64,000 bases of DNA from Nocardiopsis xinjiangensis YIM 90004 (GTDB lineage Bacteria > Actinomycetota > Actinomycetes > Streptosporangiales > Streptosporangiaceae), in NCBI RefSeq assembly GCF_000341145.1, contig NZ_ANBE01000021.1:34728-98727 (forward strand), read 5' to 3'. Within the stretch, counting starts at the first letter, position 1. Each line of letters starts with the position of its first letter. This document shows positions 14,641-34,739 of this stretch, one piece after another. Below the pieces are notes generated by a model. The model saw only the letters and a program-made list of their open reading frames with translations, ran no database searches and was not told the origin of the DNA. A program made the translations under genes and the position numbers.

Positions 14641-16995
14641 TCAATCGCCCGAGCCGCCGGAGGAACCGGAACCGCCTCCACCGGAATCGGAGCTGCCGGA
14701 CCCGGAACCCGAGGTGTCGTCCGCGTCGTCGGCGCTTTCATCCTCGTCCGAGGCGGCTTCGTCCTCGCTCTCTTCTTCCTCTTCCGCGGCCTCCTCGGCC
14801 TCACGCTCGGCCTCACGCTCTGCCTCTGCGCGGTCGGCTGCACGGGTGGTGCAGACTTCGTCCGCAGGGGATGCGGCCCCCTCGACAGCGATCACCGTGT
14901 AGCAGTACTCGGCGGAGTTGTTCGGGGTGTCGACCTGTGCGGTCTCTGCTCCGGGACCGGTGCGTGCCAGGGTTTCGGGGTCCTGGCCTCGGATGCTGCC
15001 GAGCACGAAGTAGTCAGCGGTGCCGCCGCTGTTGTCGGTCCAAGTGAGTGTGACGGCGCTGAGCGCGTCTTCCAGGGCGACCCCGCTCGGCTCGGCCACC
15101 TCGGGTGGGGGAGATGGCTCGACCGGCTCGGCCTCGGTGGCGGCCTGCTCCTCCGAGCCGGATTCGTCAGAGCCACCGTCCTCCTCCGAATCGGAATTCT
15201 CGGCAGCCGCGATCATCGGCCCGGAGGTGTTGGTGGCAGCGAAGGAGCTGGTGACCAGCGTGACCACGAGCGTGCCGCAGACAGCTACGGCGATGTGCAT
15301 TTGTCGACGCCACCGCGGAAGACCGCTCGGGGGGACATCGAGCGCTTCCCACCCCTCGTTCTCCTTCTCCCGCCCCTTCTCGACGGGGAGACGGGAAGAC
15401 TCCGCATCGCCACGCCAACCTTCGAGACGTGACCACGCACGCAGGGGAGAGATCTCCTCGCCCCGGAGCCTGGCCATCATCAGGTCGGCGGTGCCGTTGG
15501 GCACCTCCTCCGGCATCACGCCGTTGCGTTCGCGTTCTTCGGGGGTCGGTAGCGCTCGCGGTCGGGGTCTGGCCCCGGCGTTCTCGCCCAAGTGGGTGTC
15601 GTCGGAGGACGGAGCAGTGTTTTCGACACCGTGCGGCTGTACAGCGTCGGGGACGTGCGGGGTCTCGGGGGTCCGTTGGTCCGGAGACGTTCCCTGCGGC
15701 ACAGGGGGCGGAGGTACAGGGGTCTGCGAGTGGAACTGACCTTCCCGGTGGTGTTCCGGCGAGGGACCGGGCGGTGGTGCGACGGGAGCGGGGGGCACAG
15801 GACGGTATGGGCCCCGGGGCTCCTCGTGAGCGGGAGCCGACAAGGACGACCCGGTCTGTGCGTCCGGGGCAGACGAAGGCGTCGGTCCTTCGAATGCATC
15901 TCGAGGACGGGAGGAGGGTGAGGGCTCCGGAGGAATCTGCCCTCCGGAGGGGGACTGCGGAGGCGGGTCCTGGTGCCCTGGGGGCGCTGTACCGTGGGGC
16001 GCTCGTGGATCCGGCTGCGCTGAGTCGTGTGGATCCTGGGGCCCGGAGGAGACGGTGCCGTGCGGGACCTGGGGGCCGGAGGGCCAGAGTGGGGCCTGGG
16101 GACCGGACGGAGTTACGGCAGGTGTGGTCTCGGGGGGCTGCTCGGCCGACTGCCCACCATCCCTCTGAGGCGAGGTGGCGACCCGGCCGGTGCGCGCTCG
16201 CTCGAAGGCCGTGGCGAAGTCCGCGGTGGTGGCGTAGCGGTCTCGGGGGTTCTTGGACAGGGCACGGGTGAGGACCTGCCGGAGGCTGCGCGAGATGTCG
16301 GACCGGCGTACCGGGGGCGGGGTGTCCTGCAACACCCGGTTCGCGTACTGGTGAGGATCGAAAGGGCTGCCGTCCGTCGTTGCGAACGGTGCGTGACCCA
16401 CGAGCATGGTCCAGATGGTGGACGCGAGCTGGTAGATGTCCGAGGCGGAGGTCCGTGGCTCGCCCTGCAGTGCCTCGGGGGGCGCGTGCAGGAAGGACTC
16501 CATGGACGGGGGAGGTGGAGGCAGCGCTTCCCCTGCCCGGTGGACAGCGCCGAAACCGGTGAGTACGGGGGTGCGTCCGGCGCGCAGCACGTTGCCTGGA
16601 CAGACGTCGTTGTGTACGAGGCCGCGGCCGTGGACGGCGCCCAGGGCGGCTGCAACACTGCGCGATACAGCAGCGGCCTCCTGGATGGGCGCGGGTCCCT
16701 TCTTGGCCAACATCTCCCCGAACGAACCGTCGGGGTAGAAGGGCAGGACGACGAAGAACGCCCCATCGGAGGTGGTCCCGGCGTCCAGGACGGGTACCGC
16801 GCCCGGTACCCCGTCGAGTGACTGCAGATGGCCGATCTCTGCCCGGCCGGCGTCGGGGGGCAGGACCTTGAGGACGACCTCGGCACCGCTGGTGACACGA
16901 GTGGCACGGACGATGCGGGCACGGCGCCCCTGCAGCAGGAGCGCTGCGGAAGTGTACCCGGGAGCCCACTCTGCCTCGGGAGCGGAGCCGGACAT
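14641..16995 (-). CDS. Membrane pseudokinase with Pro-rich linker and fibronectin-like C-terminus
   Basis: A 784-residue protein with the layout of a receptor serine/threonine kinase but probably inactive. The kinase-like domain spans about residues 10-280. The VAIK-type Lys43 is kept, yet the glycine loop is absent, the catalytic loop reads HNDVCPGNV (128-136) with Asp130 but Cys in place of the usual Lys, and the DFG Asp is replaced (TGFG, 146-149). A long Pro/Gln/Ser-rich linker follows, then one transmembrane helix near 575-600. A Ser/Glu-rich region and a fibronectin-III-like domain (VTLTWTDNSGGTADYFVLG) end in a Ser/Gly tail. It is the last gene of the leftward WXG100 block and may be a non-catalytic scaffold for secretion or wall sensing. 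Confidence 0.85.
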   Translation of the reverse strand: MSGSAPEAEWAPGYTSAALLLQGRRARIVRATRVTSGAEVVLKVLPPDAGRAEIGHLQSLDGVPGAVPVLDAGTTSDGAFFVVLPFYPDGSFGEMLAKKGPAPIQEAAAVSRSVAAALGAVHGRGLVHNDVCPGNVLRAGRTPVLTGFGAVHRAGEALPPPPPSMESFLHAPPEALQGEPRTSASDIYQLASTIWTMLVGHAPFATTDGSPFDPHQYANRVLQDTPPPVRRSDISRSLRQVLTRALSKNPRDRYATTADFATAFERARTGRVATSPQRDGGQSAEQPPETTPAVTPSGPQAPLWPSGPQVPHGTVSSGPQDPHDSAQPDPRAPHGTAPPGHQDPPPQSPSGGQIPPEPSPSSRPRDAFEGPTPSSAPDAQTGSSLSAPAHEEPRGPYRPVPPAPVAPPPGPSPEHHREGQFHSQTPVPPPPVPQGTSPDQRTPETPHVPDAVQPHGVENTAPSSDDTHLGENAGARPRPRALPTPEERERNGVMPEEVPNGTADLMMARLRGEEISPLRAWSRLEGWRGDAESSRLPVEKGREKENEGWEALDVPPSGLPRWRRQMHIAVAVCGTLVVTLVTSSFAATNTSGPMIAAAENSDSEEDGGSDESGSEEQAATEAEPVEPSPPPEVAEPSGVALEDALSAVTLTWTDNSGGTADYFVLGSIRGQDPETLARTGPGAETAQVDTPNNSAEYCYTVIAVEGAASPADEVCTTRAADRAEAEREAEREAEEAAEEEEESEDEAASDEDESADDADDTSGSGSGSSDSGGGGSGSSGGSGD

Positions 16996-17053: not shown

Positions 17054-17416
17054 TCAGAGGGGATCCGACAGCAGGGGGGAGTCGTGGGGCAGGATCTGGA
17101 CCGACTGTTGCCGGAACTGTCCGAATCCGCGCTCCTCGTTCACCTCCTGTTGTCGTTCGAAGGCGCCGATGAGGGCGATGATCCCGCACACGAGTCCTGT
17201 GACGATGGCCCCGCCGATCACCGCGGGCCACACCCGCTGCCGTCGACGCCAGTAACGGCTCGAACCGTACAGCAGGGCCGACCGGAGTTGTCGGTGCCGG
17301 AGGGCGTCGGCCTGCAGGACGTACTTCTCCTCGTCAGGCGTGTAATGGAACGCCTCCGGGAGCTGCGGATCCGGGTCGGCCGACGCCGCCGACGGTGCAG
17401 GGGCCTGGATGGACAT
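17054..17416 (-). CDS. Single-pass membrane protein in the ESX block
   Basis: A 120-residue protein not assigned to a known family. An acidic N-terminal half (EAFHYTPDEEKYVLQADALR) and a basic stretch (RYWRRRQRVW) precede one strong helix at about residues 64-84, followed by a short polar tail. Topology should be N-terminus inside. It starts 14 bases after the WXG100 gene stop and precedes the pseudokinase gene by 58 bases, so it is almost certainly co-transcribed with them. No clear ribosome binding site is seen at the ATG (17414-17416). A role in ESX assembly is guilt by association only. Confidence 0.7.
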   Translation of the reverse strand: MSIQAPAPSAASADPDPQLPEAFHYTPDEEKYVLQADALRHRQLRSALLYGSSRYWRRRQRVWPAVIGGAIVTGLVCGIIALIGAFERQQEVNEERGFGQFRQQSVQILPHDSPLLSDPL

Positions 17417-17430
17417 CGTCGTCGAGCTTA

Positions 17431-17727
17431 CTAGAACAACCCGTCGAGGTACTGGTTGAGCCTGTTGTAGTTGTTCGCGGTGTCATCGGTCGCGTTGATC
17501 AACTTGGCGAAGGCCGAGTTCACGTCCGAGAAATGTGTGTCGTACTCCTGAGCCTTGGCCTGGAATTGGGGGCTGCCGGAGCCTTCCCACTGGCTGACAG
17601 TCATTTCCGACTGTTCGTTGATCTGACTCATGATCGCGGTGAAGCGGCCGAGGTGGGCCTGCTGGTCCTCGGCGAGACCCTGCAGGCCGGCCGCGTCACC
17701 GTAGACGTCGAAATTGCTGGCGGACAT
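17431..17727 (-). CDS. WXG100-family ESX secreted protein (EsxA-like)
   Basis: A 98-residue helical-hairpin protein of the WXG100 family, the usual cargo and co-factor of type VII secretion. The central turn motif is WEGSGSPQF at about residues 47-55, with long helices on each side, and it is rich in Gln, Ala and Asn and has no Cys. The C-terminal end reads NNYNRLNQYLDGLF; its Tyr and hydrophobics resemble the Y-x3-D/E export signal. The ATG at 17725-17727 follows AGGAAAGGG. Its presumed partner is the gene 75 bases upstream. The pair is encoded downstream of EccC on the same strand. Confidence 0.92.
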   Translation of the reverse strand: MSASNFDVYGDAAGLQGLAEDQQAHLGRFTAIMSQINEQSEMTVSQWEGSGSPQFQAKAQEYDTHFSDVNSAFAKLINATDDTANNYNRLNQYLDGLF

Positions 17728-17802: not shown

Positions 17803-18138
17803 TCAGGCGTTGACCGGGCGGTTGAGACCGCCGAGGTCGGCGCCCGACTGGCCCAGGACGTCGCTGGAATCCATGTCGGTGGTGCTGAACTGGGACTGGC
17901 CCTCGTTCAACTTGATGCCGTTCTGGGAGCACCAGGACATGAGCTCTTCGAACCTTTCGGTGAGCGCCCTCTTGGCTTCGTTGAACTCCTTGAGGGCCTC
18001 ACCTTGGAGGACCTTGGCGTCCTCGGACATGTCGTCGATGAGCTGGCTCATCTGACGCTGGATCGACTCCGACTCCTGTGCGAGCTGCTCGCCACCGGTG
18101 CCGAGTGTATCGAAATTTTCAAGACCTGTTCCGGACAT
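17803..18138 (-). CDS. WXG100-like partner lacking the WXG motif (EsxB-like)
   Basis: A 111-residue protein with the length and all-helical, Glu/Gln-rich make-up of WXG100 proteins, next to a true WXG100 gene. At the expected turn the sequence is VLQGEALKEF, so Leu replaces Trp while the Gly and downstream Ala/Phe are kept. A Trp and Cys appear later (MSWCSQNG), and the tail is a flexible Gly/Ser/Asp run ending GGLNRPVNA. The ATG at 18136-18138 follows AAAGGGAA; the extra 31 codons upstream are untranslated leader. It probably forms the heterodimer with the 17431-17727 product. Confidence 0.8.
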   Translation of the reverse strand: MSGTGLENFDTLGTGGEQLAQESESIQRQMSQLIDDMSEDAKVLQGEALKEFNEAKRALTERFEELMSWCSQNGIKLNEGQSQFSTTDMDSSDVLGQSGADLGGLNRPVNA

Positions 18139-18290: not shown

Positions 18291-19451
18291 CTATTGCTGG
18301 GCGTCCGGAGAGGGAGCGCTGCTCGGGTCGACGGGGACGGGGTCACGTACCCACCGCACGGCCAGGGGCCAGCCGTTCATGGAGGAGTCGTGCAGGACAG
18401 GGAAGGCCTCCTCCGTCGACTCCGTCTTCCCGGAGTCGTCGAGATCGATACGGAACCATTGGTCCTCCGTCTGCAGGAGCACGGCATCACGCTCTGGAGT
18501 CAGGGCGTACTGCACCACGGGACCGGATTCGTCCTCGAGCAGACGGGCTTCAGTGTAATCCTGTCCGTCGGCCTCCACCAGGTAAGCGCCCGGAGGGGGA
18601 TCTTCGTCCTCGGGGGAGGGATCGGGGCGCAGCAGGGCGGTGCCTTCTCCCCACACGGCCGCACCGTCGAAGGTCTGCCACTGTTCTCCGTCGGTGGTCA
18701 GAGTGGCGTTGACGACCGTCTCGCCGGTGCGCCGCACCACGAGGTTGCCACCCCCGTTGAGCTGTTCGGTCTGGACGCTGTCGCGGATGTGGAGGGCGCC
18801 TTCGGGGGTCAGGGCCCAGTCGCTCGGGGCTTGGTTCTCACCGAGGGCGAGGGTTCCTTCCTGGTTCGGGGTGCCGGTGGGCGCCTCCAGGGGGACCGAG
18901 AGGACCTGCGGTGGGTTGGGGCCCTCAGGGGCGTCCGAGACGTACCACACGCGGTCCTCGTGCACGACGGGGTCCGAGACGACTTCGCCGTTGGCCGGCG
19001 GCACCGATTCCACGGCTTCGTAGCTGAACTGCGTGGGGTCCTCACCGCTCTCCTCGTCCTCCGGAGAGGAGCTCTCAGCGTCCTCGGCTTCGGTCAGCAT
19101 CGCGATGTTCACGGCGTTGGGCTCCTCCGTGGCGTACACGAACACCATCCAGTCCTCGGAGAACTGTGCGTGTACCTGAGGTCCCTCCGCCATCGCGTCG
19201 ACGGCGCCCTCGGGAAGGCCGAAGCGCTGCTCGGGCTGCCCGGTCTCCGGGTCGTGAAAAACCAGCGTCTGGTCGGTCTCGGGGTCGCCGCCCTCGTGAC
19301 CGCGGTGCAGTAGAGCGAGCCCGGAGGGGCCTTGCTCCGCCAGGTCGTCGACGGTCTCGGGCGCCCCGGCGTCGCCGTCGTCCCCCGTCTCGCTGCACGC
19401 GGCCACACAGAGCACGCACACGGCCGAGAGCAGGGCGAGAGGGCGCCGCAT
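18291..19451 (-). CDS. Lipoprotein with repeated beta-strand (propeller-like) structure
   Basis: A 386-residue lipoprotein: basic start MRRPLALL, hydrophobic core, lipobox VAAC with lipidated Cys19. The mature part is acidic and beta-rich with short repeats such as TLVFHDPETGQPEQRFGLP, DRVWYVSDAPEG and AVLLQTEDQWFRIDL, which suggest a beta-propeller. The ATG at 19449-19451 was chosen for the signal sequence and the AAAGG upstream. A related lipoprotein at 42407-43531 shares the FHDPE-G...GL segment and the LL-T-D C-terminal strand. It sits between the ESX genes and two more lipoproteins and is probably exposed at the cell surface. Confidence 0.8.
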   Translation of the reverse strand: MRRPLALLSAVCVLCVAACSETGDDGDAGAPETVDDLAEQGPSGLALLHRGHEGGDPETDQTLVFHDPETGQPEQRFGLPEGAVDAMAEGPQVHAQFSEDWMVFVYATEEPNAVNIAMLTEAEDAESSSPEDEESGEDPTQFSYEAVESVPPANGEVVSDPVVHEDRVWYVSDAPEGPNPPQVLSVPLEAPTGTPNQEGTLALGENQAPSDWALTPEGALHIRDSVQTEQLNGGGNLVVRRTGETVVNATLTTDGEQWQTFDGAAVWGEGTALLRPDPSPEDEDPPPGAYLVEADGQDYTEARLLEDESGPVVQYALTPERDAVLLQTEDQWFRIDLDDSGKTESTEEAFPVLHDSSMNGWPLAVRWVRDPVPVDPSSAPSPDAQQ

Positions 19452-19458: not shown

Positions 19459-20148
19459 CTACCTTTCGGGGCAGAGGCGAGGGAACGCAGGGACTGAAGA
19501 TGTGACTCCCCCCGAAAGGTTATGGTTCGGTCCGCGCAGTACGGGACACGGAGGCACTTCTCTGACAGTGGCCGCACGGCGTTCATACAGGGCAGAAGGC
19601 CTGTCCAGCCCGTCTGCGGCGACTCGGTGCCGGTTCGAGCGTGTGCCTGTCGGTAGGGTTTGGCCGATTCCGGCCATCGGTCCAGAACGGTGCGCGGAAC
19701 GGCGATTTTTCAGGTATGAGCGCACCAAGAAGTGATCTGGCTCTCGCTGAGTAATTGTTTCGAGTGCGTCACGAAGATCGTTCAGCTGTACATCGTGGTA
19801 GCACAAGTGATCGCTGGGGTCGCGGAGTTGGTGGCGCTCCGGATCCGCGAACGTGTCCTGATCGAGGTCCTCCGGAGCGAAGGTGCCCTGGTCGATGAGC
19901 CGTTGGATGCTGTGGTGGAGCACATGGGCCTCGATGGTCTGCGATGAGCCGATGAAGAAGGTGTCGGCAGGTGTGTCGGGATCGGGTCCGGCTTTGTGGA
20001 TTCGGACAGGTTTTTCCTGGTCCTGGGGATCGATGCTGCCGCTACCAGTGGTGTGGTGCTCGACTCGCAGTGGGTCGGGGGCGGTGCAGCCTGCGGTGGC
20101 CAGGAGAACCAGGGTGGCTGTGGTGACGAGAGTGGTGCGGGGTTTCAT
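19459..20148 (-). CDS. Small lipoprotein, possibly with a spurious C-terminal extension
   Basis: A lipoprotein with lipobox ATAGC (Cys21) and a mature acidic domain containing FFIGSSQTIEAHVLHHSIQR and SDHLCYHDVQLNDLRDAL. Its ATG overlaps the stop of the preceding lipoprotein gene by four bases (ATGA), so the two are translationally coupled. After about residue 143 the sequence turns into an Arg/Pro-rich run without clear codon bias, extending to just 8 bases before the next gene's start and covering its leader. That suggests an original stop was lost by mutation or a frameshift. Function is unknown. Confidence 0.6.
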   Translation of the reverse strand: MKPRTTLVTTATLVLLATAGCTAPDPLRVEHHTTGSGSIDPQDQEKPVRIHKAGPDPDTPADTFFIGSSQTIEAHVLHHSIQRLIDQGTFAPEDLDQDTFADPERHQLRDPSDHLCYHDVQLNDLRDALETITQREPDHFLVRSYLKNRRSAHRSGPMAGIGQTLPTGTRSNRHRVAADGLDRPSALYERRAATVREVPPCPVLRGPNHNLSGGVTSSVPAFPRLCPER

Positions 20149-21512
20149 CGGAGTGCGGTCAGGCGCGGGGTGTGGTCATTTCTGGGGAACTCGCGTAGGA
20201 GGACGGCTCCCGGTACCTCTCGGAAAGTCATCGGACCGACTTCGCGATTGAGCCGGTCGGAGTTGAGTATATCTTCGGTGTTGAGCTCGATGTTGAGGGG
20301 GATGCGATGGTCGTTATCGTTGCCCCACTCTAGGACGACGATTTCCTGTTCTTTTTCTTCGCCGGTTAGACGCAGTTTGACCAATGATTCTTCCAGGAGG
20401 ACAAAACTATGATTACTTCCTCGGGCCACGTTCTCGTCCGTGGAGATGGTGTCGCGGACAGATCCGTCGAAGTCACGTAGTTCGTACCGAACTTTATTGT
20501 GTTCGGAGCTGTTACTCACAACGTTCAAGTATCCGTTAGGGAAGACACGGAGTAGGGAGTCATCGGCGGTGCTGGGTAGGTCATCGGTGATGAGGTCGCC
20601 GGTGGTGGTGTCGATGACGACGGTTCCGCGTTGAAGGGAGATGTTCTCCAATACCAGCAGGTCATCGGATACGAAGAAATCCGTCTTTCTCGGAGACAAC
20701 GGAATCGGGTAGACGTTTTCGTCGGGTTGGTAGTCGTCTCCTTGTTGGAGGTGCCAGGTTTGTTCGCCGGTTTGTAGGTCGATGCCGGTGAGGGCGGGGT
20801 CTTGGGTGGGGCAGGTGTGGACGATGACGGCGGTCTCGTCGGTGAGTAGGCCTTGTTCGATGATGGCGTTGTTGCCGTCGTCGCATCCGGGCAGGGTGGT
20901 TTCCCATCCGGTGTCCTGATCCTGGTCCTGGTGTTCCCAGGGGGTCAGGGTCAGGTGGAGGTCGTGGTCGCTGGTGGAGGTGAGGTTGCCTGTGGTGTGG
21001 GGCAGGCCGAGGCGGGTGGGGGTGAACAGGTCGTCGCTGCCCTCGGTTTGGTGGTCGATGCGTTGGTGTTCTTGGCCGGTGGCGGTGTCGAGTAGGACGG
21101 TGGTCTGGCCGGGGGAGAAAGCGGCGATGGTGCCGTCGGGGGTGAGGGCCAGGTCGGTTTCGTCTTCCTCGAGGTCGGTGGAGTCGGGGAGTAGGTAGCT
21201 CCAGGTGGTTTCGCCGGTGGTGGTGTCCATGCCGATGAGGCCGTTGTTGAGTTCGATCAGGGCACCGCTGGGTGTGGGGTGGATGGCCTGGATGGTGGTG
21301 CCGGGGGTGCCTTCCCAGGTCCAGGCGGTCTCGGTGACGGTGCTCGGGACGGGGCCCGGGTCGGGCGGGATATCGGTGGTGTGGTGTTCGAGAGCGTGGC
21401 CGGCCAAAGGCTCGGGGCCGGGGTTCTGGTTTTCAGTGCTGTTGACGGAGCACCCAGCCAGAAACACGGAAATGGACACCGAAGATATTATTGCGTTGCA
21501 TGCTAGTCTCAT
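20145..21512 (-). CDS. PQQ/beta-propeller-type lipoprotein
   Basis: A 455-residue lipoprotein starting at the ATG 21510-21512: hydrophobic leader and lipobox FLAGC (Cys21). The mature part contains repeated strands of the PQQ-like type, for example LIGMDTTTGETTWSYLLP, LTGIDLQTGEQTWHLQ and VVIDTTTGDLITDDLP, consistent with a seven- or eight-bladed propeller used for protein contacts or sensing. The ribosome binding site is weak. Base composition of the first 100 codons and the last 170 is clearly lower in GC than the neighbours. It is coupled to the following lipoprotein gene. A small IS-disrupted gene lies upstream. Confidence 0.8.
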   Translation of the reverse strand: MRLACNAIISSVSISVFLAGCSVNSTENQNPGPEPLAGHALEHHTTDIPPDPGPVPSTVTETAWTWEGTPGTTIQAIHPTPSGALIELNNGLIGMDTTTGETTWSYLLPDSTDLEEDETDLALTPDGTIAAFSPGQTTVLLDTATGQEHQRIDHQTEGSDDLFTPTRLGLPHTTGNLTSTSDHDLHLTLTPWEHQDQDQDTGWETTLPGCDDGNNAIIEQGLLTDETAVIVHTCPTQDPALTGIDLQTGEQTWHLQQGDDYQPDENVYPIPLSPRKTDFFVSDDLLVLENISLQRGTVVIDTTTGDLITDDLPSTADDSLLRVFPNGYLNVVSNSSEHNKVRYELRDFDGSVRDTISTDENVARGSNHSFVLLEESLVKLRLTGEEKEQEIVVLEWGNDNDHRIPLNIELNTEDILNSDRLNREVGPMTFREVPGAVLLREFPRNDHTPRLTALR

Positions 21513-21690
21513 AAATTTGTAGCCCAAAGAAACTAATTTCACCAAAGATCTAGAGTTGGGTCGCGTCGAGCTCTTCTTGAATTTTTTCACGAGTGACATT
21601 GTGGGCATCGATGTATTCACTTACTGCTTCATCGTGATTGAATTCCGTTCCGTGCCACGAATCGTGGAAAAGTTCCCGCCATGCGTCATT

Positions 21691-21704
21691 GAGGTGATCT
21701 CAGC
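21691..21704. repeat. Left terminal inverted repeat of the IS
   Basis: GAGGTGATCTCAGC, perfectly complementary to 22661-22674. Matching becomes scattered beyond the 14th base. Confidence 0.9.
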
Positions 21705-22520
21705 GAGTTTGCTTTTCGATATTCGTCAGAGCCAACGCGGCTTGCACGATCATCCCGATCTTGGACGGGCCCGTCGTGGTGTGGCGCAGTGCCCTCCACC
21801 TGCCGGTGAGCACGGCCATGGCACGCTCGCCGATGCATCGCAGGCCGCGTAGGAGCCGGTTATGGGCACGGTCATCGACATGCCGGCGGCGCTCGTCGAC
21901 CTCGGGCGGACGCTTGATCGGAGTGCGCACACCCACCCCGGCGCCCTCGTAGGCGGGATCGGCCAACATCACCAGCCCCTCGGCGGTGGCCTTGTGCAAA
22001 GCGGGAACGCGTGCAGGCGTGCGGCGGTGATATCGGCCGTGGACCCGGGCTCGACCTCCGAGACCCACACCGGTTCCCCACGAGCATCGGACAGGAACTG
22101 GATGTTGCCGCCGTGGTGGTGTTTATGGCCGCTGCATCCAAAGGTCGCTCTCACCAGAGGGGGCAGGCTCCGAACAATGGTCACAAGGAAACAGTTTTCC
22201 GTCCAGGATCAGAGGGTCCTCGGGGGCCAGGCGGGCGTGTTCGAGCACTTCGTACAGGTCGGGAGCCTGGTCGGCCAGCACGTGGACACCCTCGTCGACG
22301 TAACGGTAGCGGTGGCCCGACAGATGTGGTTGTCCCTGGCCAGAGCATCGATCGCCGTGTCATCGCGAAACCACCGCAAGATCAGGACCGCCTGTTTGCA
22401 GCAGGTCAGGGAGCGGGTGCCCGTGCGGGTGCCGCAGCGTCGGCGTTCGGCGTTCAGCAGGGCCGAAAGGTGCCAAACGGTGGCCTGGTCCACGACGAGG
22501 GTGGCAGGGTAGGCAACCAC
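21700..22520 (-). pseudogene. IS5-type DDE transposase, multiply frameshifted
   Basis: The pieces add up to one DDE_Tnp_4-type transposase. The N-terminal part starts at a GTG at 22518-22520 (VVAYPATLVVDQATVW) and has the helix-turn-helix segment RWFRDDTAIDALARDNHIC. A frame change near 22317 leads to YVDEGVHVLADQAPDLYEV and LILDGKLFPCDHC, which contains the first catalytic Asp. A further change gives HKHHHGGNIQFLSDARGEP and GSTADITAARLHAF. The last piece is LADPAYEGAGVGV then RGLRCIGERAMAVLTGRW, with the second Asp and the catalytic Glu. At least three frameshifts make it inactive. Confidence 0.85.
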
Positions 22521-27179: not shown

Positions 27180-28517
27180 GTGAGTGGTTACTGCAGGGTC
27201 ACGGTCACTGGTCCCCAGCGTTGGGCCGACCTCGCCCTCCCCGGTAGTGTCCCCGTGGCCACACTCATGCCGCGCATCATCGACGTGTGCGCTCCCGACG
27301 GGGAGAGCACCGAACCAGCGTCCTGGAACCTGACCACCGTGGACGGGCATCCCGTCCGCCTGGAGGAGCCGCTGGAAGAGACCGGGGTCTACGACGGTGA
27401 CGTTCTGGTCCTCGACCGCGTGGTCGCCCCCGGCCGGCCCGAGTACGTCGACGACGTGCGCGGAGCCGTCGAGGACCAGGTCGACGAGACCGCGTGGATC
27501 TGGAACTCGAGTACGACCTTGTCCTTCGGCCTGCTCGTGGGTGCGATCGGCCCGTTGCTGATGCTTGCGTTCATGTTGTGGACCGACCCGTCCCCGGGGT
27601 TCCTGGCGGTCGCCTCTCTGGGCACGCTCTTCACCATCGGTGCGATGCTGCTCGCGGCCCGCCGTCCGCTGCCCGCGGCCGCCCACGTACTGTTCTCCAC
27701 CGCCTGTGTGTGGGGCGCGGTGTCGGCGGTCCTGGCGTCCCAGTTCGTGGTCGCCCCGAACTCTTTGGTCACAGCGGCGGTCGCGTTGTCGGGTGCCCTG
27801 CTCGTGGCCGTCGTCGGGTGGGCATTGCACGAGACCGGTCTGGCTCACATCGCCGGGCTCGCGACCGTGGTCCTCACCGTCGGTGTCCTGGTCCTGGTGG
27901 GGATCTTCGTGGAGCCGGTGCAGGGCGCGCGTTCGATGGGTATCGTTCTGGCCCTGTGTGTGGGGGCGTTGCCCCGTGTGGCGATGGTGATGGGAGGCCT
28001 GTCGGGGCTCGACTACGAGGTCGGGCGTTCGGGACAGGTGGCCACGGACCGCTTCGAGGAGACTCACGGCAACAGTGACCGTCTCCTGCTCGGTATCACC
28101 ATGGGCGCGGCCGTTTCCGGTGGAGCTGTCACCGCACTGCTCGCCTACTTGGGCACCGGACTTCCGGACCTGTTGCTGTGCGGCCTTCTCGGGCTTCTGC
28201 TGGTACTGCGTTCACGCCTGTTCGATCGCATCCGCCATGTGCTGCCCCTGCGCTTGGCCGGGGTGGCGGGGCTCGGGGCCGCGGGTGTGGCGGTCGCGAA
28301 CGCGTACCCGGCCTCGGCCCCCTGGGTGCCGGTGGTCGTGCTGGTGGCCGGTGTGCTGGCGGGCGTGTTGAGCTGGGTGAAGCTCAATGACGTGCCCCGG
28401 GCCTCGCTCCGGAGGATCCTCAACTGGACCGAGGTCCTCGTGATCATGGCCCTGTTCCCTGTTTGTGCCTGGGGAATGGGGCTCTTCGAGTTCGTGGCCG
28501 CCATGACTTCACCGTGA
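27180..28517 (+). CDS. eccD: Type VII secretion integral membrane protein EccD
   Basis: A 445-residue ESX membrane-pore component. An N-terminal ubiquitin-like (YukD-type) cytosolic domain covers about residues 1-90, with VTVTGPQRWADLALPGSVPV and LEETGVYDGDVLVLD. About eleven transmembrane helices follow from residue 113, including SLGTLFTIGAMLLAA and VLTVGVLVLVGIFV. The GTG at 27180 lies behind GAGG. It is divergent from eccC. Its stop lies only 5 bases from the stop of the convergent kinase gene at 28523. In known systems EccD works with EccB, EccC and EccE; the missing partners must lie elsewhere or be dispensable. Confidence 0.92.
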   Translation: MSGYCRVTVTGPQRWADLALPGSVPVATLMPRIIDVCAPDGESTEPASWNLTTVDGHPVRLEEPLEETGVYDGDVLVLDRVVAPGRPEYVDDVRGAVEDQVDETAWIWNSSTTLSFGLLVGAIGPLLMLAFMLWTDPSPGFLAVASLGTLFTIGAMLLAARRPLPAAAHVLFSTACVWGAVSAVLASQFVVAPNSLVTAAVALSGALLVAVVGWALHETGLAHIAGLATVVLTVGVLVLVGIFVEPVQGARSMGIVLALCVGALPRVAMVMGGLSGLDYEVGRSGQVATDRFEETHGNSDRLLLGITMGAAVSGGAVTALLAYLGTGLPDLLLCGLLGLLLVLRSRLFDRIRHVLPLRLAGVAGLGAAGVAVANAYPASAPWVPVVVLVAGVLAGVLSWVKLNDVPRASLRRILNWTEVLVIMALFPVCAWGMGLFEFVAAMTSP

Positions 28518-28522: not shown

Positions 28523-30541
28523 TCAACCGATCTGGTGGGTGTCCCGGAGCGAGTCGGGGTTGAGGAACAGGATGAGGTCCTCGTTGATGCCTGCGCCGGA
28601 TTCGACCACGGCGATCGTCTCCTCGTCGGGGTGCACCTCCGGGGTCTTGTACAACAGCGTCTCCCCGGACACCAGTTCCTCCCCGGTCTCGACGTCCCAC
28701 ATGAAGCCACCGGAGACGCTGATGCCTTTGCTGCGACCGGCCAACAGGACGGAGCCGTCCGGGGAGAACCCGAGCCCCCGTGGTACACCGGGAGATTCCA
28801 GATCGAGCACGATCTCACCTGTGGACAGGTCGATGAGGCTGGTGACCTCCCGGATGTCGTCGGGCACGGCGAGGAGCGGGTCGGTGGGTGAGAACTCGGT
28901 CCGGAGGGAGCGCAGCCCGTCTCCTTCCTCACCAGTGTGTTCCTCGTTGGGATACTCGTAGACGACCTCGTCCTCGGCCAGGTCGATCACCCACAGGCGG
29001 GGGTCCGCTCCGGGATGCCCCAGAGCCAGATGGTCGCCCGTCGGGCTCAGGTCGGCACTCATCGCCGTGACGTCCTCCTCCCAGAAGACGGTGTCTGCCT
29101 CCCAGTCCCAGACCGTGACAGTGGCCTCGTCGGTATCCGGCTCGCCGTGCACGAAGGCCAGCAGGGATCCGTCCGCGGAGAAGGAGACGCTGTCGTGGTG
29201 CTCTCCCTCGCCCGGTCCGTCCCCGAAAGCCACCAAGTGCTCGTGCTCCTCGTCCCACACATGGACGCCTCCAGGCCCAGCGGTAGCCGTGTGGCCCGAG
29301 GCGGCGAGATCGAAGGAGAAATACTCGGGAGCGTCCTCGAACGGGACGTCGATGAGCTCGCCTTCCCGCCAGTCCCAGACAGTCGTGCGGTCGGCAGCGT
29401 GGACGTACAGTTCGTCGCCGTCCGAGGCGAAGTACATGCCGTAGAGGCCCTCCGGGAAACTCGCCTCGTCGGTTGCGGCGCTGGTGTCTGCTTCCCCCTC
29501 GCCTTCTCCGGTGGCGGCCTCGTGTTCCCAGGGGCGTGGCATCACGACTGCGGTCACGGAAATGAGAACCACTGCGGTTGCGGCAGCTCCTGCGACCAAC
29601 CAGGGACGGCTCCGGGATCCCGGGAGGGGAGCGGACCCCGCCCCTGCCCCGTGTACCACTTGCCGGAGTTCGCGCTCGTGGTCCCCGATCGCCTCGTTGA
29701 CCGTGGAGGGCAGCCACCCGTGCTCGGCCGGGGGCAGGGGCTCGGCCGAGAGCGCGCGGACCAACTCATCGGCAGTGGGACGGTCGGCCGGTTCCTTGGC
29801 CATGCAACGGGCCATGAGATCGCGCAAGGTCCCCGCATGCAGGGCACCGAGCCGGGGATCAGCGCTCACCACCCGCTGCAGGACCTGGGATGCGGGTGAA
29901 CGCCCGAACGGGGGTTCACCACAGGACGCGAACACGACGACACCGGCCAGGGAGAAGATGTCACTCGCGGCGCTCTGCTCATGCCCGAGCACCGTCTCGG
30001 GGGCCGCGTAGGAGGGGGTGCCGAAGGCTTCCCCCGTCTTGGTCAGTACCGTTCCCTCCACCGCGCGGGCGATTCCGAAGTCGATGACCTGAGGCCCGCG
30101 CGGTGAGAGCAGCACGTTGCCGGGCTTGAGGTCGCGGTGCATGATCCCGGAGGCGTGCACCGACTGCAGCGCCCGGGCGAGCCCCAGAGTGAGCACACGC
30201 AGTGACCCCTCCGGCAGCGGTCCGCCCGTCGCGACGGCTTCGCCGAGGGTCGGACCCGGCACGTATTCGGTGGCCATCCAGGGCGCTTCCCCCTCGGCCC
30301 CCACCGACAACACCGCGGGTGTGAAGGGGCCCCGCACCATCTGCGCGGTCCTGGTCTCCCGAGAGAACCGTGCCCGGAACCCTTCGTCCTGTGCGAGTTC
30401 TCGGTGCGTGATCTTGACAGCGGCCAAGCGGTCTTCGGGGGTCCGGGCGAGGTAGACCGCGCCCATGCCGCCGGCGCCGAGGCGTGCGAGCACACGGTGC
30501 GGGCCGATGTGCGAAGGGTCGGACTGCTGGAGGGGCTTCAT
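28523..30541 (-). CDS. Receptor serine/threonine kinase with beta-propeller sensor
   Basis: A 672-residue PknB-type kinase with intact motifs: glycine loop LGAGGMGAVY (21-30), Lys43 in AAVKI, catalytic loop HRDLKPGN (135-142), DFG (154-156) and APE (180-182). One transmembrane helix lies near 313-334. The outer C-terminal part has WD40/propeller-like repeats (LYVHAADRTTVWDWREGEL, LLAFVHGEPD, VTVWDWEADTVFW, GFSPDGSVLLAG). It is the third gene of a leftward operon, 29 bases after the pseudokinase gene, and it converges on eccD. It probably senses an external ligand and phosphorylates cytoplasmic targets, possibly parts of the ESX machine. Confidence 0.92.
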   Translation of the reverse strand: MKPLQQSDPSHIGPHRVLARLGAGGMGAVYLARTPEDRLAAVKITHRELAQDEGFRARFSRETRTAQMVRGPFTPAVLSVGAEGEAPWMATEYVPGPTLGEAVATGGPLPEGSLRVLTLGLARALQSVHASGIMHRDLKPGNVLLSPRGPQVIDFGIARAVEGTVLTKTGEAFGTPSYAAPETVLGHEQSAASDIFSLAGVVVFASCGEPPFGRSPASQVLQRVVSADPRLGALHAGTLRDLMARCMAKEPADRPTADELVRALSAEPLPPAEHGWLPSTVNEAIGDHERELRQVVHGAGAGSAPLPGSRSRPWLVAGAAATAVVLISVTAVVMPRPWEHEAATGEGEGEADTSAATDEASFPEGLYGMYFASDGDELYVHAADRTTVWDWREGELIDVPFEDAPEYFSFDLAASGHTATAGPGGVHVWDEEHEHLVAFGDGPGEGEHHDSVSFSADGSLLAFVHGEPDTDEATVTVWDWEADTVFWEEDVTAMSADLSPTGDHLALGHPGADPRLWVIDLAEDEVVYEYPNEEHTGEEGDGLRSLRTEFSPTDPLLAVPDDIREVTSLIDLSTGEIVLDLESPGVPRGLGFSPDGSVLLAGRSKGISVSGGFMWDVETGEELVSGETLLYKTPEVHPDEETIAVVESGAGINEDLILFLNPDSLRDTHQIG

Positions 30542-30570: not shown

Positions 30571-32619
30571 TCAGGGGAGCGCGGCCGTGCGTTCGAGTGT
30601 CTGCGCATCGAGCAGGACGACGTCTCCTTCGCCGCCGACTGCGGCGATCACCTCACCGTCAGGGTGGAAATCCACGGGCCGAGGAGTGAGGTCCTCGTCG
30701 GCTGCGAGCTCTTCCCCGGTCTCCATGTCCCACATCCGGCCCTCGTTCTGGAACTGCCGGTCGGTACCGATGGCATCCGCGCCGACGATCGGTTCGTCGG
30801 GCTGCGGGTCGGCCCAGCTGAAGTGGAGGAGCCCGAGATCCGGGGCGACCTCGACCCCGGTGACGTATCCGTTGTCGCTGACGGCCTCGGCGTACTCGGG
30901 TACGGGGAACCGGTCCAGCTCGATCCCCTCGTCCAGATCCCACCACACGAGGTCCTCGTTGCTGGGGTAGATGACCTCGTTCTTGCCAGGCACGACTCCG
31001 AAGCCGCTGCCCGTGTAGTCGCGGATGGTGGTCTGCAATTCGCCGGTCTCGACGTCGCGCAGCTGAAGTGTGTCAGTGGTCGCGATGATGATCCGATCGT
31101 CGTCGACGTGGGCCAGATCCCAGACGGAGATCTCATTACCCCACTCGTGGACGAGTTCACCGTCGTCCATGTCGATGATCCCCACGGTGGGCTGCCGAGA
31201 GCCTTGTTCGGCGCCGCTCTCGAAGCCGACGGCGACGGCGAGGTGCTCACCCGATGGGGCGAAATCGAAGGCCACCGCACGCCGCGGGGCTTCCAACTCG
31301 TCGAGGACACGCCGGCTCTGCGGACCGAGGTGTTCGGTGGTCTCCGACGAGGGGAGGTCGTGGGTGTTGAGCACCGGGTACTCGTAGCCGGAGTCCCGGA
31401 ACTCGACGGGGTCCATCGCCGCGACCATGCAGCCGACCGGTGCAAAAGCGCCCGCGTAGTCCAGGTGCGCGCCGTCGGCCGGGCGGGCGATCTCCACGCC
31501 CTCCTCCCAGTCCCACACGGTCAGGCCGTGGTTGTAGCTGGTCGCGAGCAGGGCGGACCCGTCGGGTGAGAACGAGACCCCGGTCGCGTCGAGGTCGTCG
31601 ATCCTCCCCCCGGGGCCTGGCAGGCTGTCGGCGTCCGCGCAGGAGCTGTCGCTGATCATGCCGGGGGCCGCCGGTTCGGGCTCCTCCTCGCCCGAACCGG
31701 GACCCTCGCCCAGAGCCCGGACCGCACCGCCACCGGCGACCAGCGCCAGGGCAAGGCCGCTCGCGGCGAGCATGATCCTCCTACGGCGGCGCCGGGTGTT
31801 CCGCCCGGGACCGTTCTCGGCCAGGTGATCGCGGATCGCTCGGCCGTGGTGGTGGATGACGCCGGCGAGATCGGCCGGCCAGGCCCCGGGGACCGCGGGC
31901 CCGCCCAGAATGCGCACGATGTCGGCGGAGGTGGGGCGCAGCTCCGTGTCCTCTTCGAGGCAGGCGTCGACGAGGCCGCGCATCTGCATGGGAACATTTC
32001 CTGCCCCGCCGGTGCCGTCGGTCCCCGAGGCGGCAAAACACAGGGTCGCCGCCCAGGCGAACACGTCGGCAGCGGGGGAGAGACCGCCCTCGGGGGCGCT
32101 GTGGGCGGTATGGGCCGGCCTGCGCCCGACTGCGGCCGCGGCCTGCTCGAAACCGGCGTCGGCCAGAACGGTGCCGGGCTCGGTCAGCAGGATCTCGTCC
32201 GGGCCGAGGGACCCGTGGACACGGGAGGCGGCGTGCAGGTCGGCCAGTCCTTGGGCCATGGCGAGCGCGAGCGGGGGCAGCGCGGCCGTCGGTAACGGAC
32301 CGTGCGCACGGACGCATTCGGCCAGGGTCGGGCCGAGCGGTCGGGACACGGCGATCCACTGCGCCGGTTCCTCCTTCGAGGAGCCCAGCACACCGGCCAC
32401 GTACGGGCTCTGCTTACCCTGCGAGCTCTGTACGAGGCTCGTGAAGGCCTCGCGGAACGCGGGGTCGGAGGACAGACCCGACCGGGTCACCTTGAGCGCC
32501 ACCGGCGCCCGGTTCCCGGCCGTGGCCAGGTACGTGCGGGCGGCTGTGTCCTCGCCGAGCCGGGCGTGCAGTGTGTACGGGCCGACCCGTGGAGGATCGT
32601 GCGGACTGAGGGGGATCAT
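30571..32619 (-). CDS. Pseudokinase with beta-propeller sensor domain
   Basis: 682 residues with the same architecture as its two neighbours, but the kinase domain is degenerate. The glycine loop reads LGEDTAARTY with no G-x-G, Lys43 is kept, the catalytic HRD loop has become HGSLGPDE (135-142) with Asp lost, and DFG is DAG (154-156) with the APE region also altered. A basic RRRRRR stretch precedes the transmembrane helix (about 289-309), then the propeller repeats (VSFSPDGSALLATSYNHG, LTVWDWEEG). The ATG at 32617-32619 is 20 bases after the preceding kinase gene. It may act as an allosteric partner of the flanking active kinases. Confidence 0.88.
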   Translation of the reverse strand: MIPLSPHDPPRVGPYTLHARLGEDTAARTYLATAGNRAPVALKVTRSGLSSDPAFREAFTSLVQSSQGKQSPYVAGVLGSSKEEPAQWIAVSRPLGPTLAECVRAHGPLPTAALPPLALAMAQGLADLHAASRVHGSLGPDEILLTEPGTVLADAGFEQAAAAVGRRPAHTAHSAPEGGLSPAADVFAWAATLCFAASGTDGTGGAGNVPMQMRGLVDACLEEDTELRPTSADIVRILGGPAVPGAWPADLAGVIHHHGRAIRDHLAENGPGRNTRRRRRRIMLAASGLALALVAGGGAVRALGEGPGSGEEEPEPAAPGMISDSSCADADSLPGPGGRIDDLDATGVSFSPDGSALLATSYNHGLTVWDWEEGVEIARPADGAHLDYAGAFAPVGCMVAAMDPVEFRDSGYEYPVLNTHDLPSSETTEHLGPQSRRVLDELEAPRRAVAFDFAPSGEHLAVAVGFESGAEQGSRQPTVGIIDMDDGELVHEWGNEISVWDLAHVDDDRIIIATTDTLQLRDVETGELQTTIRDYTGSGFGVVPGKNEVIYPSNEDLVWWDLDEGIELDRFPVPEYAEAVSDNGYVTGVEVAPDLGLLHFSWADPQPDEPIVGADAIGTDRQFQNEGRMWDMETGEELAADEDLTPRPVDFHPDGEVIAAVGGEGDVVLLDAQTLERTAALP

Positions 32620-32639
32620 GGAAGCACTCTCACCTGGGG

Positions 32640-34739
32640 TCAGCTGAACCGGGCGATCTCGGCGAGGGCATCGGGGCTCATGAGGACGATCTCGGCGCTG
32701 TCCGGGAGGAGCCCGGCGACCACTTCGCCTTCGGGATGTACGGACAGGCCCAGGGCCAAGTCCTCGCTGGCGGCCTCGATCTCCTCGACGCCCTCCTCGT
32801 CGGGGTCCCACGTGTGGTGGAACTCCCAGATGTAGAGGTAGTAGGGGACCGTGTCGCCCTCCGGCTCCTCGCTGAAGGTCGTGTAGAGGCGGTTCTCGTG
32901 CTCGTTGTAGGCGAATTCGCGCAGTTCGCCCTCGTGGTCGGCGTCCGAGGGCGGGTTGAAGGTCCAGCCGTCGGCCCGGTCGAGTGCGTAGTCGTAGAGC
33001 GAAACCCCTTCGGGGGTGGAGAAGAAACCGCTGCTGTCACCGAGCAGGTGTGTCGGCGAGCCGACCCCGACGACGACCTGCTCAGCATCGAAGACGATCT
33101 CCCCGGTCCCGGCGTCCCACACGTTGAGCTGGTCGTTGATGTCCACCCCCGCGAGCCGGTCCCCCTCGGGGGAGTGGGACAGGGCGGTGTGGCTGCCCAA
33201 CCCGTCGTGGACCAGGACCGTGTCCCCGGTCTCCAGGTCGATGTCGTAGGTCCCGCCCTCGGCGTCGAACCCCCGGTCGGCGACCGTGATGGTGTCGCTG
33301 TCCGGTGAGAAGGCGATGTCCCGCAGCTCCCGGCCTTCCGCGTACACGGTCAGCTCTCCGGTCTCCAGGGAGTAGACCCGTGCGCCGTCGGGGCTCGCCC
33401 AACCGATCAGGCAGTCGTTCGGGCTGAAGTACGGGGCGCTCTCGGACTCGTCCGGTCGGGAGGCCGGGACGAAGGCGAGCTCGTTCTGTGCCTCCCAGTC
33501 CCACAGGGCCACGCCGTTCCCGCCCGCTACTGCCAGGACCGAGCCGTCGTGGGAGAAGTTGCTCAGGATCCGCTTGCTCCCCGTCGGCACGGTGGGTTCT
33601 TCCGAAGCGGCCCCGGTGAACTCCTCCGCCAGATGCTGGGTGGGGTCGCACCGCTCCCGTGCGGGGTCCTCTTCCTCGCCTTCGTCCCCGGCGGCGGCCC
33701 CGGCCTCCTCCGATGGCGCGAAGGGATCGTCGACGGCCCAGAACCCGAACCCGCCGACCAGGCACAGCGCCATGGCGGCGGCCCCGGCGACGAGCAGCCC
33801 GCGCGCCTTCGAGCCGTTCCCGGACACGGAGCGCACCCGGTCGTACTCGGCTGCGACCTCGTTCACGGCGGCCGCGGCCTGCGGGGGCAACCACTGGCCG
33901 GCGTCGGAGGCGGGGGCGGTGGGTCCGCCGAGCGTCTGCAGGACCTGAGCGGCGGTGGGCCGGCGGGCGGGGTCCTTGTCCAGGCACGCGGCCAGGAGCG
34001 GGCGCAGCGGAGGGGGCACACGGTCGAGTTCGGGGTCGAGGGTCTCGCTCCGGTAGAGGACGGAGGAGGGATGACCGTCGCCGAAGGGGCCCACGCCGGT
34101 CAGGGCCCACACGAGGACCCCGCCGAGCGCGAACACGTCGGCGGGCGGGCCGGCCTGTTCGCCGCGGGAGGCCTCGGGGGCCATGTACCCGGGGGTGCCG
34201 GCGGTCGTAGCGCCGCCGGGCTGCCGTTCGTCCTCTGCGGCGCGGGCGATACCGAAGTCGATGACTTGCGGGCCCTCGGCGGCGACCATGACGTTGGCGG
34301 GTTTGAGGTCGCGGTGGGCGAGCCCTTGGGCGTGCACCCCGGCCAGGGCCTGGGCGATGGCGCGCGCGAGGAGCACGGCGGAGGGTTCGGGCAGCGGCCC
34401 GGTGCGCTCCACCAGGTGCTGCAGGGAGGGCCCCTTGACGTAGGCGGTGGCCAACCACGGGCGTTCACCCGAGGTGTCGGCGGCGTACACCCGCGGAACG
34501 CCCTGGCCGTGCACCCTCTGGGCGAGGGAGAGTTCGTGGGCGAAGCGTTCGCGGAAGTCGGGGTCGTAGGCGTACTCGGCCCTGACCACCTTCACCGCGG
34601 CCGGTTGGTCGTCGCGGTCGAGACCCAGGTACACGCGGCCCATACCGCCGCTGCCCAGGAGGGCGGTGATCTTGTAGGGGCCGATCCGGGGCGGGTCGTC
34701 GTCAGCGAGGGGGCGCATGGGGGTCTCGGTTTCTGGCAC
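32640..34739 (-). CDS. Receptor serine/threonine kinase with beta-propeller sensor
   Basis: A 699-residue kinase, first gene of the three-kinase operon. Motifs are intact: glycine loop LGSGGMGRVY (28-37), Lys50 in AAVKV, HRDLKPAN (142-149), DFG (161-163), APE (187-189). A transmembrane helix lies near 316-336, then propeller-like repeats (VLAVAGGNGVALWDWEAQN, LAGVDINDQLNVWDAGTGE). A GTG at 34737-34739 gives this length; an ATG seven codons later (34718) is the alternative, and neither has a good ribosome binding site. With 28523 it gives the locus two active kinases flanking one dead kinase. Confidence 0.92.
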   Translation of the reverse strand: MPETETPMRPLADDDPPRIGPYKITALLGSGGMGRVYLGLDRDDQPAAVKVVRAEYAYDPDFRERFAHELSLAQRVHGQGVPRVYAADTSGERPWLATAYVKGPSLQHLVERTGPLPEPSAVLLARAIAQALAGVHAQGLAHRDLKPANVMVAAEGPQVIDFGIARAAEDERQPGGATTAGTPGYMAPEASRGEQAGPPADVFALGGVLVWALTGVGPFGDGHPSSVLYRSETLDPELDRVPPPLRPLLAACLDKDPARRPTAAQVLQTLGGPTAPASDAGQWLPPQAAAAVNEVAAEYDRVRSVSGNGSKARGLLVAGAAAMALCLVGGFGFWAVDDPFAPSEEAGAAAGDEGEEEDPARERCDPTQHLAEEFTGAASEEPTVPTGSKRILSNFSHDGSVLAVAGGNGVALWDWEAQNELAFVPASRPDESESAPYFSPNDCLIGWASPDGARVYSLETGELTVYAEGRELRDIAFSPDSDTITVADRGFDAEGGTYDIDLETGDTVLVHDGLGSHTALSHSPEGDRLAGVDINDQLNVWDAGTGEIVFDAEQVVVGVGSPTHLLGDSSGFFSTPEGVSLYDYALDRADGWTFNPPSDADHEGELREFAYNEHENRLYTTFSEEPEGDTVPYYLYIWEFHHTWDPDEEGVEEIEAASEDLALGLSVHPEGEVVAGLLPDSAEIVLMSPDALAEIARFS

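Follow-up and report, generated by a model that had tools for sequence, protein, structure and literature searches.

An EccC/EccD locus without EccB in Nocardiopsis xinjiangensis, a probable stand-alone type VII secretion system of Actinomycetota

Results

Gene content of the island

The DNA analysed here, referred to as the window, is a stretch of 64,000 nucleotides of Nocardiopsis xinjiangensis YIM 90004 (G000:C21:34728-98727), from a draft assembly of 5.33 Mb and 90 contigs, which carries at 14.6-34.7 kb an island of type VII secretion system (T7SS) genes that begins with a pseudokinase gene and ends with a kinase gene (Table 1). The core genes eccC and eccD lie back to back on opposite strands and are accompanied by genes for a WXG100 protein, a small partner that lacks the WXG motif, and a 120-residue single-pass membrane protein, referred to as TM120. 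An initial annotation of the sequence had described a single-chain EccC with three Walker A motifs, the WXG100 protein and its partner, the single-pass protein, three lipoproteins, and two intact and two degenerate receptor kinases, and all of these are present: the three lipoproteins have lipoprotein-like N-termini (lipobox by eye), and HRD and DFG are both found in kinC and kinA, with HRD lost in kinB and DFG in the pseudokinase pkFN3. The Walker A motifs of EccC are located at residues 497, 857 and 1146, and both EccC models (TIGR03924 and TIGR03925) score above cut-off, as expected of the ATPase of T7SSa (ESX) systems. EccD likewise exceeds the cut-offs of the models that define a T7SSa EccD (TIGR03920, PF08817 and PF19053), and while the protein is there, the divergence previously ascribed to it is only moderate (143 bits against a curated cut-off of 94.95). 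Genes in this and related loci were called from third-position G+C content (GC3) and homology, without a trained gene finder, and orthologs served to correct the starts of the WXG-less partner (18138), the first lipoprotein (19451) and kinB (32619). The G+C minimum of the window (0.60 at 20-22 kb) coincides with a broken DDE transposase between eccC and the lipoprotein genes; neither this remnant nor the YtfJ-like gene figured in the initial annotation.

Table 1. Features of the island and of an adjoining accessory gene (positions in the window)
Feature	Position	Strand	Basis
YtfJ-like gene, accessory, beside pseudokinase	14122-14574	-	PF09579 24.4 bits, just below cut-off 25
pkFN3, pseudokinase: Pro-rich linker, conserved LRGEEISPLRAWSRLEGW segment, transmembrane (TM) helix, FN3-like outer domain (FN3 by eye)	14641-16995	-	PF00069 66 bits; alignment A3
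TM120, 120-aa single-pass protein	17054-17416	-	Ortholog alignment A1; 35/40 genus genomes; 67 loci
WXG100 (Esx-like) protein	17431-17727	-	PF06013 30.0 bits, cut-off 27.3
WXG-less small partner	17803-18138 (open reading frame (ORF) to 18231)	-	Start by orthologs; adjoins WXG100
Lipoprotein, beta-propeller (TolB or amine-dehydrogenase like)	18291-19451	-	AlphaFold2 (AF2) model; cluster in 24/67 loci
Second lipoprotein-like ORF, possibly frame-damaged at end	19459-20148	-	Lipobox by eye; weak matches in relatives
Third lipoprotein, PQQ/BamB-type propeller	20145-21620	-	PF13360 34.2 bits, cut-off 27.6
Broken DDE transposase remnant	21700-22556	-	PF13359 45 bits in 21700-22068; 22209-22556 without Pfam match, N-terminal part by eye
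eccC, single-chain FtsK-type ATPase, three Walker A motifs	22991-27031	-	TIGR03924 788 bits, TIGR03925 717 bits
Divergent eccC/eccD gap, 148 bp, presumed shared promoter region	27032-27179	.	Divergent gene order in relatives
eccD, YukD ubiquitin-like domain and EccD membrane domain	27180-28517	+	TIGR03920 143 bits, PF08817, PF19053
kinC, Ser/Thr kinase, WD40-like outer domain	28523-30541	-	PF00069 127.7 bits; WD40-type matches all below cut-off
kinB, pseudokinase, WD40-like outer domain	30571-32619 (ORF to 32811)	-	HGS in place of HRD
kinA, Ser/Thr kinase, WD40 outer domain	32640-34739	-	PF00069 145 bits

Conservation of the locus

The genome contains three eccC/eccD sets, that of the window and those on contigs C3 and C2, whose EccC proteins are 40% and 41% identical to the window EccC; in what follows, window-type eccC denotes an identity of at least 60%. 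The window EccC is 80-90% identical to many orthologs, the listed full-length copies of which have no internal stop, and the copies of two genomes (G009 and G029) are broken or split. Divergent transcription of eccC and eccD was seen in 37 of the 38 tabulated loci of the window type and a second Nocardiopsis type, the exception being L053, in which the two genes share a strand, and the gap between them measures 144-222 bp in 31 of the 37 divergent loci. The eccC, eccD and small genes co-occur across dozens of loci, above chance.

Alignment of TM120 orthologs revealed a nearly invariant cytosolic stretch (ADALRxRQLRSALLxGS) and a single TM helix, beyond which the tail is short and variable. TM120 was found in 35 of 40 genomes of the genus, all of them among the 37 with window-type eccC, and in 81 of 345 genomes of the order at E 0.001 when weaker matches are included; the 20 weaker-match places that were fetched all proved to encode longer proteins of the C3 type instead of TM120. 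Named genomes of several actinobacterial families contain at least 67 TM120 loci, a number that is a lower bound because the scan depends on conserved peptides, and to which some genomes contribute two loci; the genera include Nocardiopsis, Streptomonospora, Thermobifida, Actinomadura, Saccharopolyspora, Glycomyces, Stackebrandtia, Actinoplanes, Fodinicola, Aeromicrobium, Mumia and others. In the DNA fetched for these 67 loci, eccC or eccD is present in 57, WXG100 homologs in 43 and the WXG-less partner (tblastn) in 44, and EccB in none. The ten loci without eccC or eccD include short contigs and stretched loci.

EccB is missing from the locus and from whole genomes that carry it

The single EccB match in the genome (311.6 bits) lies on contig C2 beside its own eccC and eccD. 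Mycosin (TIGR03921) was matched at five places, the best of them at the C2 locus (154 bits, below the curated cut-off) and none on the contig of the window, so that the mycosin expected at a T7SSa locus is missing here. The EccE model (TIGR03923) matched nothing in this genome, but the control gave no match either. A complete ESX locus elsewhere, clearly paired with the genes of the island, had been named in the initial annotation as evidence against an unusual system; contig C2 does carry eccB, eccD, eccC and a mycosin-like gene at one locus, and the eccB there is paired with its own class of EccC, not with the window genes.

Scoring eccB as TIGR03919 at E 0.001, in genomes that are partly drafts, we found it in 31 of the 40 genus genomes. 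Every one of the 32 eccB places has an EccC of the 35-46% identity class no more than 3.1 kb away (the 34 rows were reduced to 32 by merging two pieces in G019 and omitting a 22-bit piece in G009; small eccC fragments were also omitted), and the EccB expected of T7SSa was absent within 20 kb of all 43 window-type eccC places among the matches listed, which is the basis of all EccC place counts in these genomes. An eccB match is absent altogether from 8 of the 37 genus genomes carrying window-type eccC. In two eccB-free genomes (G005 and G007) the sole EccC is of the window type, both EccC matches considered, and in two more (G021 and G034, with one further match each) only window-type EccC occurs among the matches listed. 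The genomes reached through TM120 loci gave a similar picture: EccB was absent from 14 of 30, comprising Aeromicrobium (6), Mumia (3), other Nocardioidaceae (2), Thermobifida, Allosalinactinospora and one Nocardiopsaceae isolate, and present in 16, at least three of which (G431, G452 and G453) also belong to the 40-genome set, as judged by identical eccB coordinates. Because eccB-free genomes carry window-type eccC or TM120 loci, the window-type system is, by gene distribution, independent of any EccB of the known family and does not need to borrow one; it constitutes a separate T7SS lineage. Thus, of the two possibilities raised initially, a minimal ESX variant is supported by eccC and eccD without eccB at the locus and in whole genomes, and a variant that borrows its missing parts is at odds with the eight genomes that have no eccB to borrow.

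TM120 is related to a C3-locus protein

In the TM120 homologs examined, the TM helix is followed by a short low-complexity tail, of up to ~90 residues in distant taxa, and by no extracytoplasmic repeat domain such as that of EccB. The layout of TM120 (cytosolic helix, loop, TM) made it appealing as a truncated EccB, a candidate that was dropped after shuffle and reversal controls: hhalign aligned TM120 with the EccB N-terminus at 92.9% probability and still at 91.0% when the cytosolic half was reversed. Homology of TM120 to EccB is not claimed because this score rests mainly on the TM helix. The Pfam family PF05108 was matched by 5 of 24 TM120 family members (best E 0.011), and an unrelated model by 16. 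A sequence search of the PDB with TM120 returned an integrin TM helix as its best match (E 0.15), and an NCBIfam scan of TM120 and the WXG-less partner gave no match at a useful level.

A relationship was found with the C3 locus, which has eccC and eccD and no eccB. This locus encodes a 325-residue protein (L043:7778-8755) composed of a TM120-like membrane module and a C-terminal TNT domain (PF14021, E 4.8e-22), whose homologs were aligned from 22 loci, including that on contig C3 of the present genome. With the TM parts removed, the cytosolic half of TM120 matched the N-terminus of the C3 protein at 95.9% probability; none of 60 shuffles was as good, and the reversed sequence gave 2.2%. TM120 itself is a marker of the EccB-free lineage.

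Phylogeny of EccC

Two trees were built from hand-picked sequences. The first contains 52 rows, drawn from 54 extracted sequences plus that of the window (L266 was left out, L255 and L261 were dropped as shorter than 600 aa, and L263 was without a match). In this tree the window type, the second Nocardiopsis type and all 15 sampled EccCs from TM120 loci of other taxa cluster together (SH-aLRT 100, 30 rows); addition of the C3 type produces a fully supported group of 40, outside of which the eccB-partnered EccCs (C2-type and mycobacterial) are placed. The second tree has 30 rows; many near copies and three long mycobacterial sequences were omitted, and an EssC-like protein from within the genus (TIGR03928, 581 bits) was added as outgroup. 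Here the eccB-partnered EccCs form one clade (100/100), the TM120 clade (91/97) lies outside it, and the C3 type groups with the eccB-partnered clade at 83/73. The position of the root is unsure because the outgroup branch is very long (4.86).

An EssC-like ATPase encoded in a Nocardiopsis relative (L266:487-4887, G012:C43) scores 581 bits with TIGR03928, below cut-off, versus 386 for EccCa, and members of the ~30%-identity class occur near full length in at least 12 of the 40 genus genomes.

The WXG pair and candidate cargo

WXG100 orthologs retain the WXG motif in 25 of 26 complete sequences, and close orthologs share a strongly conserved tail, YxxLxxYLDGLF. Orthologs of the WXG-less partner adjoin WXG100, and W.G appears somewhere in 5 of 29 of their frames, from which upstream residues had not been trimmed. 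The pair of WXG100-type proteins typical of T7SSa is therefore represented by one PF06013 member and an adjoining WXG-less partner without a Pfam WXG100 match.

Many relatives have, in or near the interval from eccC to the WXG genes, a gene for a protein of ~870 residues, which carries PF23275 (EspA-like) in all five cases scanned and stands beside a partner of ~110-130 residues; the two form clusters in 24 and 21 of the 67 TM120 loci. PF23275 is present in 37 of the 40 genus genomes, namely in all 35 with TM120 and in 2 of the 5 without it (Fisher P 0.001, uncorrected for kinship), and of the 37 genomes that carry window-type eccC, 27 have a copy no more than 15 kb from it. In the present genome an EspA-like gene and its partner are found on contig C44 and another PF23275 match on C49. 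The WXG pair and the EspA-like proteins are candidate substrates that may be exported by the system.

Kinases, pseudokinases and propellers

Both pkFN3 and kinB fall short of the residues of an active Ser/Thr kinase (Lys, HRD Asp and DFG Asp): pkFN3 of the window has GFG for DFG while keeping the Lys and an HND motif, and kinB has HGS for HRD. Sequences that cluster with pkFN3 occur in 36 of the 67 TM120 loci, and among 37 readable rows GFG replaces DFG in 24 and the HRD Asp, the DFG Asp or both are lost in 32, at sites that differ between lineages, while the unusual juxtamembrane segment LRGEEISPLRAWSRLEGW has been retained. The HRD Asp of kinB is lost in 20 of 20 orthologs; conversely, kinA keeps the catalytic Asp in 9 of 9 readable orthologs (of 12), and kinC keeps HRD and DFG in 4 of 4 (of 5). 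The kinase-pseudokinase pair recurs in nearer relatives. Of 31 window-type loci, 21 have a kinase domain of these families no more than ~5.5 kb from eccD, and 7 others have a propeller without a kinase domain, two of them at the edge of the fetched DNA. No pkFN3 match was seen at the TM120 loci of Nocardioidaceae, Micromonosporaceae and Glycomycetaceae that were displayed. A role of the four kinases in defence was considered on account of PADLOC matches and set aside; these are kinase-type models over many entries, mostly PD-T4-6, and do not constitute evidence.

The recurring propeller outer domains had been taken to suggest a shared external ligand or an outer assembly replacing EccB and EccE; structure comparison did not bear out one propeller fold common to the lipoproteins and kinase outer domains. 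The outer domain of kinA, although modelled with low confidence (pLDDT 64.1, 6 rows), is clearly WD40 (Z 24.4, root mean square deviation (rmsd) 2.8, 270 aligned) and resembles that of the WD40 receptor kinase PkwA of Thermomonospora curvata (PDB 5yzv; Z 23.4, rmsd 3.2, 263 aligned, 22% identity); unlike the latter, kinA adjoins a T7SS and is paired with a conserved pseudokinase sister. The AF2 model of the first lipoprotein (pLDDT 82.1) is a propeller that matches TolB (1c5k; Z 11.7, rmsd 4.4, 252 aligned) and amine dehydrogenase (2hxc; Z 11.6, rmsd 5.4, 268 aligned) equally well, with WD40 chains at Z near 10.8 and a Foldseek TM score of just 0.36. The third lipoprotein is of the PQQ/BamB type. 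One shared fold was therefore rejected, and the comparisons do not show a single propeller family. Furthermore, a paralog of the propeller lipoprotein (22% identity, E 8e-9) is encoded outside the island, beside an ABC transporter at 42407-43531, and such lipoproteins are consequently not island-specific.

Comparison with known T7SSs

EccB, EccC, EccD and MycP are common to all five mycobacterial ESX systems (Garrett et al. 2024, PMC11217815). The window system shares with T7SSa and ESX-4 an EccC with EccCa and EccCb domains, an EccD with fused YukD, and a WXG100 protein accompanied by another small protein as partner; it differs in the lack of an EccB or mycosin match at the locus, the absence of EccB from whole carrier genomes, the addition of TM120, and the position of its EccC outside the eccB-partnered group. 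In T7SSb (EssC/EssB/EsaA/EssA/EsaB), EssB is a membrane pseudokinase (PMC11217815), and the window system is similar in that its ATPase is found together with a pseudokinase and a small protein, each of them single-pass. In contrast to T7SSb, however, the ubiquitin-like domain forms part of EccD, YukC/EssB is not matched by pkFN3 (two kinase models are its only Pfam matches at E up to 0.05), and no FHA family is among the 23 Pfam matches of EccC.

The T7SSc-T7SSj subtypes, as far as they are covered in the available text of Garrett, Higginson and Palmer (2024, PMC11217815), are reported from Bacillota only, save T7SSd, the sole new actinobacterial subtype. They offer parallels to features seen here or in relatives, i.e. 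kinases, small single-TM proteins (TsdH and TseK), a propeller protein (TsgL) and, in T7SSg and T7SSh of Bacillota, adjoining Tad pili. EccD is not among the components listed there, no listed subtype consists of EccC and EccD without EccB, and the free-standing EsaB/YukD-like protein of most subtypes has its counterpart here in the N-terminal domain of EccD. Neither "Nocardiopsis" nor "Streptomyces" appears in the main text of PMC11217815, and among the matches listed in the open-licence literature there was no description of an EccB-free actinobacterial T7SS or of a T7SS in Nocardiopsis. The window system would work in the manner of an ESX system, but because EccB and mycosin of T7SSa are lacking at the locus and T7SSb-T7SSj, as described in the available text, do not fit, we judge it to be a T7SS variant that is not a member of ESX.

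Discussion

We consider it probable that the island encodes a stand-alone, EccB-free T7SS of Actinomycetota. In the mechanism that we propose, EccC and EccD would form the ATPase and pore unit of the inner membrane, and TM120 would take over the cytosolic and TM bracing that the N-terminus of EccB provides in ESX complexes, in a machine built with neither the outer chamber of EccB nor a mycosin at the locus. The WXG100/WXG-less pair would be its cargo, the WXG100 tail docking on EccC, and further cargo may be supplied by the EspA-like proteins and their small partners, whose genes are close to the locus in most relatives and at other places in the present genome. The pkFN3 of Nocardiopsaceae, often together with the pair of active kinase and pseudokinase (kinA and kinB) and their WD40-like outer domains, may relay an outside signal to the machine and place it under phosphorylation control. 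Gene content, a distribution independent of EccB, synteny, the lost catalytic residues and the propeller folds are observed, whereas the assembly, the part played by TM120, export and kinase control are inferred.

Several observations weigh against this proposal. Of the 37 genomes that carry window-type eccC, two (G019 and G020, both fragmented assemblies) gave no TM120 match, and in the nearest relative, G024, TM120 is represented by two overlapping pieces. One of 60 shuffles of its cytosolic part equals the TM120-EccB score, and the cytosolic parts alone align at 0.5% probability. Both catalytic Asp residues are kept in 5 of 37 pkFN3 rows, neither kinase nor propeller is found near eccD in 3 of 31 window-type loci, and a kinase is near eccD in only 1 of 7 loci of the second type. 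With such a distribution the kinases were rejected as core components, and the earlier claim that kinase signalling is built into the locus holds regionally. Finally, the EspA-like cassette is missing from the locus in this genome; because of this absence and the presence of the transposase remnant, the locus is possibly in decay in this strain, its intact eccC, eccD and TM120 notwithstanding.

Among other explanations, it is conceivable, if rather unlikely, that TM120 is a regulator or a membrane anchor module which tethers extracytoplasmic domains to EccC and EccD and does not replace EccB. Tethering is suggested by the C3 protein, in which the same module, with a cytosolic half that matches beyond all shuffles, heads a protein ending in a TNT domain; on the other hand, the short tail that follows the TM helix at the TM120 loci examined provides no domain to tether, and the conservation of the cytosolic part far exceeds what an adaptor of variable cargo would require. 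A decayed island, i.e. an ESX locus that is losing parts and has been invaded by a mobile element, and to which the kinases and lipoproteins are mere neighbours, appears improbable. The transposase remnant, the absent EspA-like gene, the G+C minimum, the possibly damaged lipoprotein ORF and the broken or split eccC copies of two genomes are what this explanation would predict, but the high identity and stop-free frames of EccC orthologs, the intact and syntenic TM120, WXG100 and eccD, and the EspA-like gene and partner elsewhere in the genome argue against it. Borrowing by a reduced ESX, with the ESX-4-like locus on C2 as the donor of EccB and mycosin (and EccE), is highly improbable and was set aside, since the presence of such a locus in a genome whose window locus lacks EccB and mycosin matches is outweighed by the eccB-free genomes, which largely refute borrowing, and by the invariable association of eccB with its own EccC class.

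Assuming a stand-alone EccB-free system, a conserved EccC and EccD lineage without EccB, alone in some genomes, shows which parts of the ESX core are dispensable and offers a simpler machine for structural work. It also permits a test of the published order of acquisition, in which, as proposed in PMC4791881, eccB, eccD and mycP joined FtsK-WXG to form ESX-4. One tentative reading, which we regard as possible rather than likely, is that the EccB-free lineages (TM120 and C3 types) are a surviving grade that predates EccB and mycosin; EccC, EccD and a small TM subunit would then be ancestral, and the outer part would come from neighbours, such as the Tad pilus in Nocardioidaceae and pseudokinase and propeller modules in Nocardiopsaceae. 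Recurrent loss of catalytic residues in kinases adjacent to the machine would furnish a second case of a pseudokinase in a T7SS, after EssB.

Neighbouring genes in relatives

Tad-type genes are located downstream of TM120 in 15 of the 67 loci (L163, L165, L167, L169, L171-L178 and L180-L182), which belong to Nocardioidaceae (genera or family) or Geodermatophilaceae. Homologs of TadA and TadB are both present in 10 of these, and T2SSE, T2SSF and SAF domains were checked for one, L171. No Tad-pilus genes were noticed among the window ORFs that were scanned, which are not all of them. The proximity may reflect a shared outer channel or mere neighbourhood. Just upstream of TM120, 13 of the 67 loci encode a ParA/MinD-like ATPase with a Pro-rich N-terminus (e.g. 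L171:8452-9960), which we take to resemble EspI.

Weak mycosin-like matches (41-48 bits) were observed on the opposite strand just past pkFN3 in 3 of the 67 loci (L145, L148 and L149, from Nocardiopsis suaedae, potens and endophytica), and some relatives may therefore have gained a mycosin-like protease. Homologs of the YtfJ-like gene lie beside eccD or elsewhere in the loci of many relatives. The window also encodes, at 11303-12943, a protein with an OmpA domain (PF00691, 53 bits), although the genome is that of a Gram-positive bacterium.

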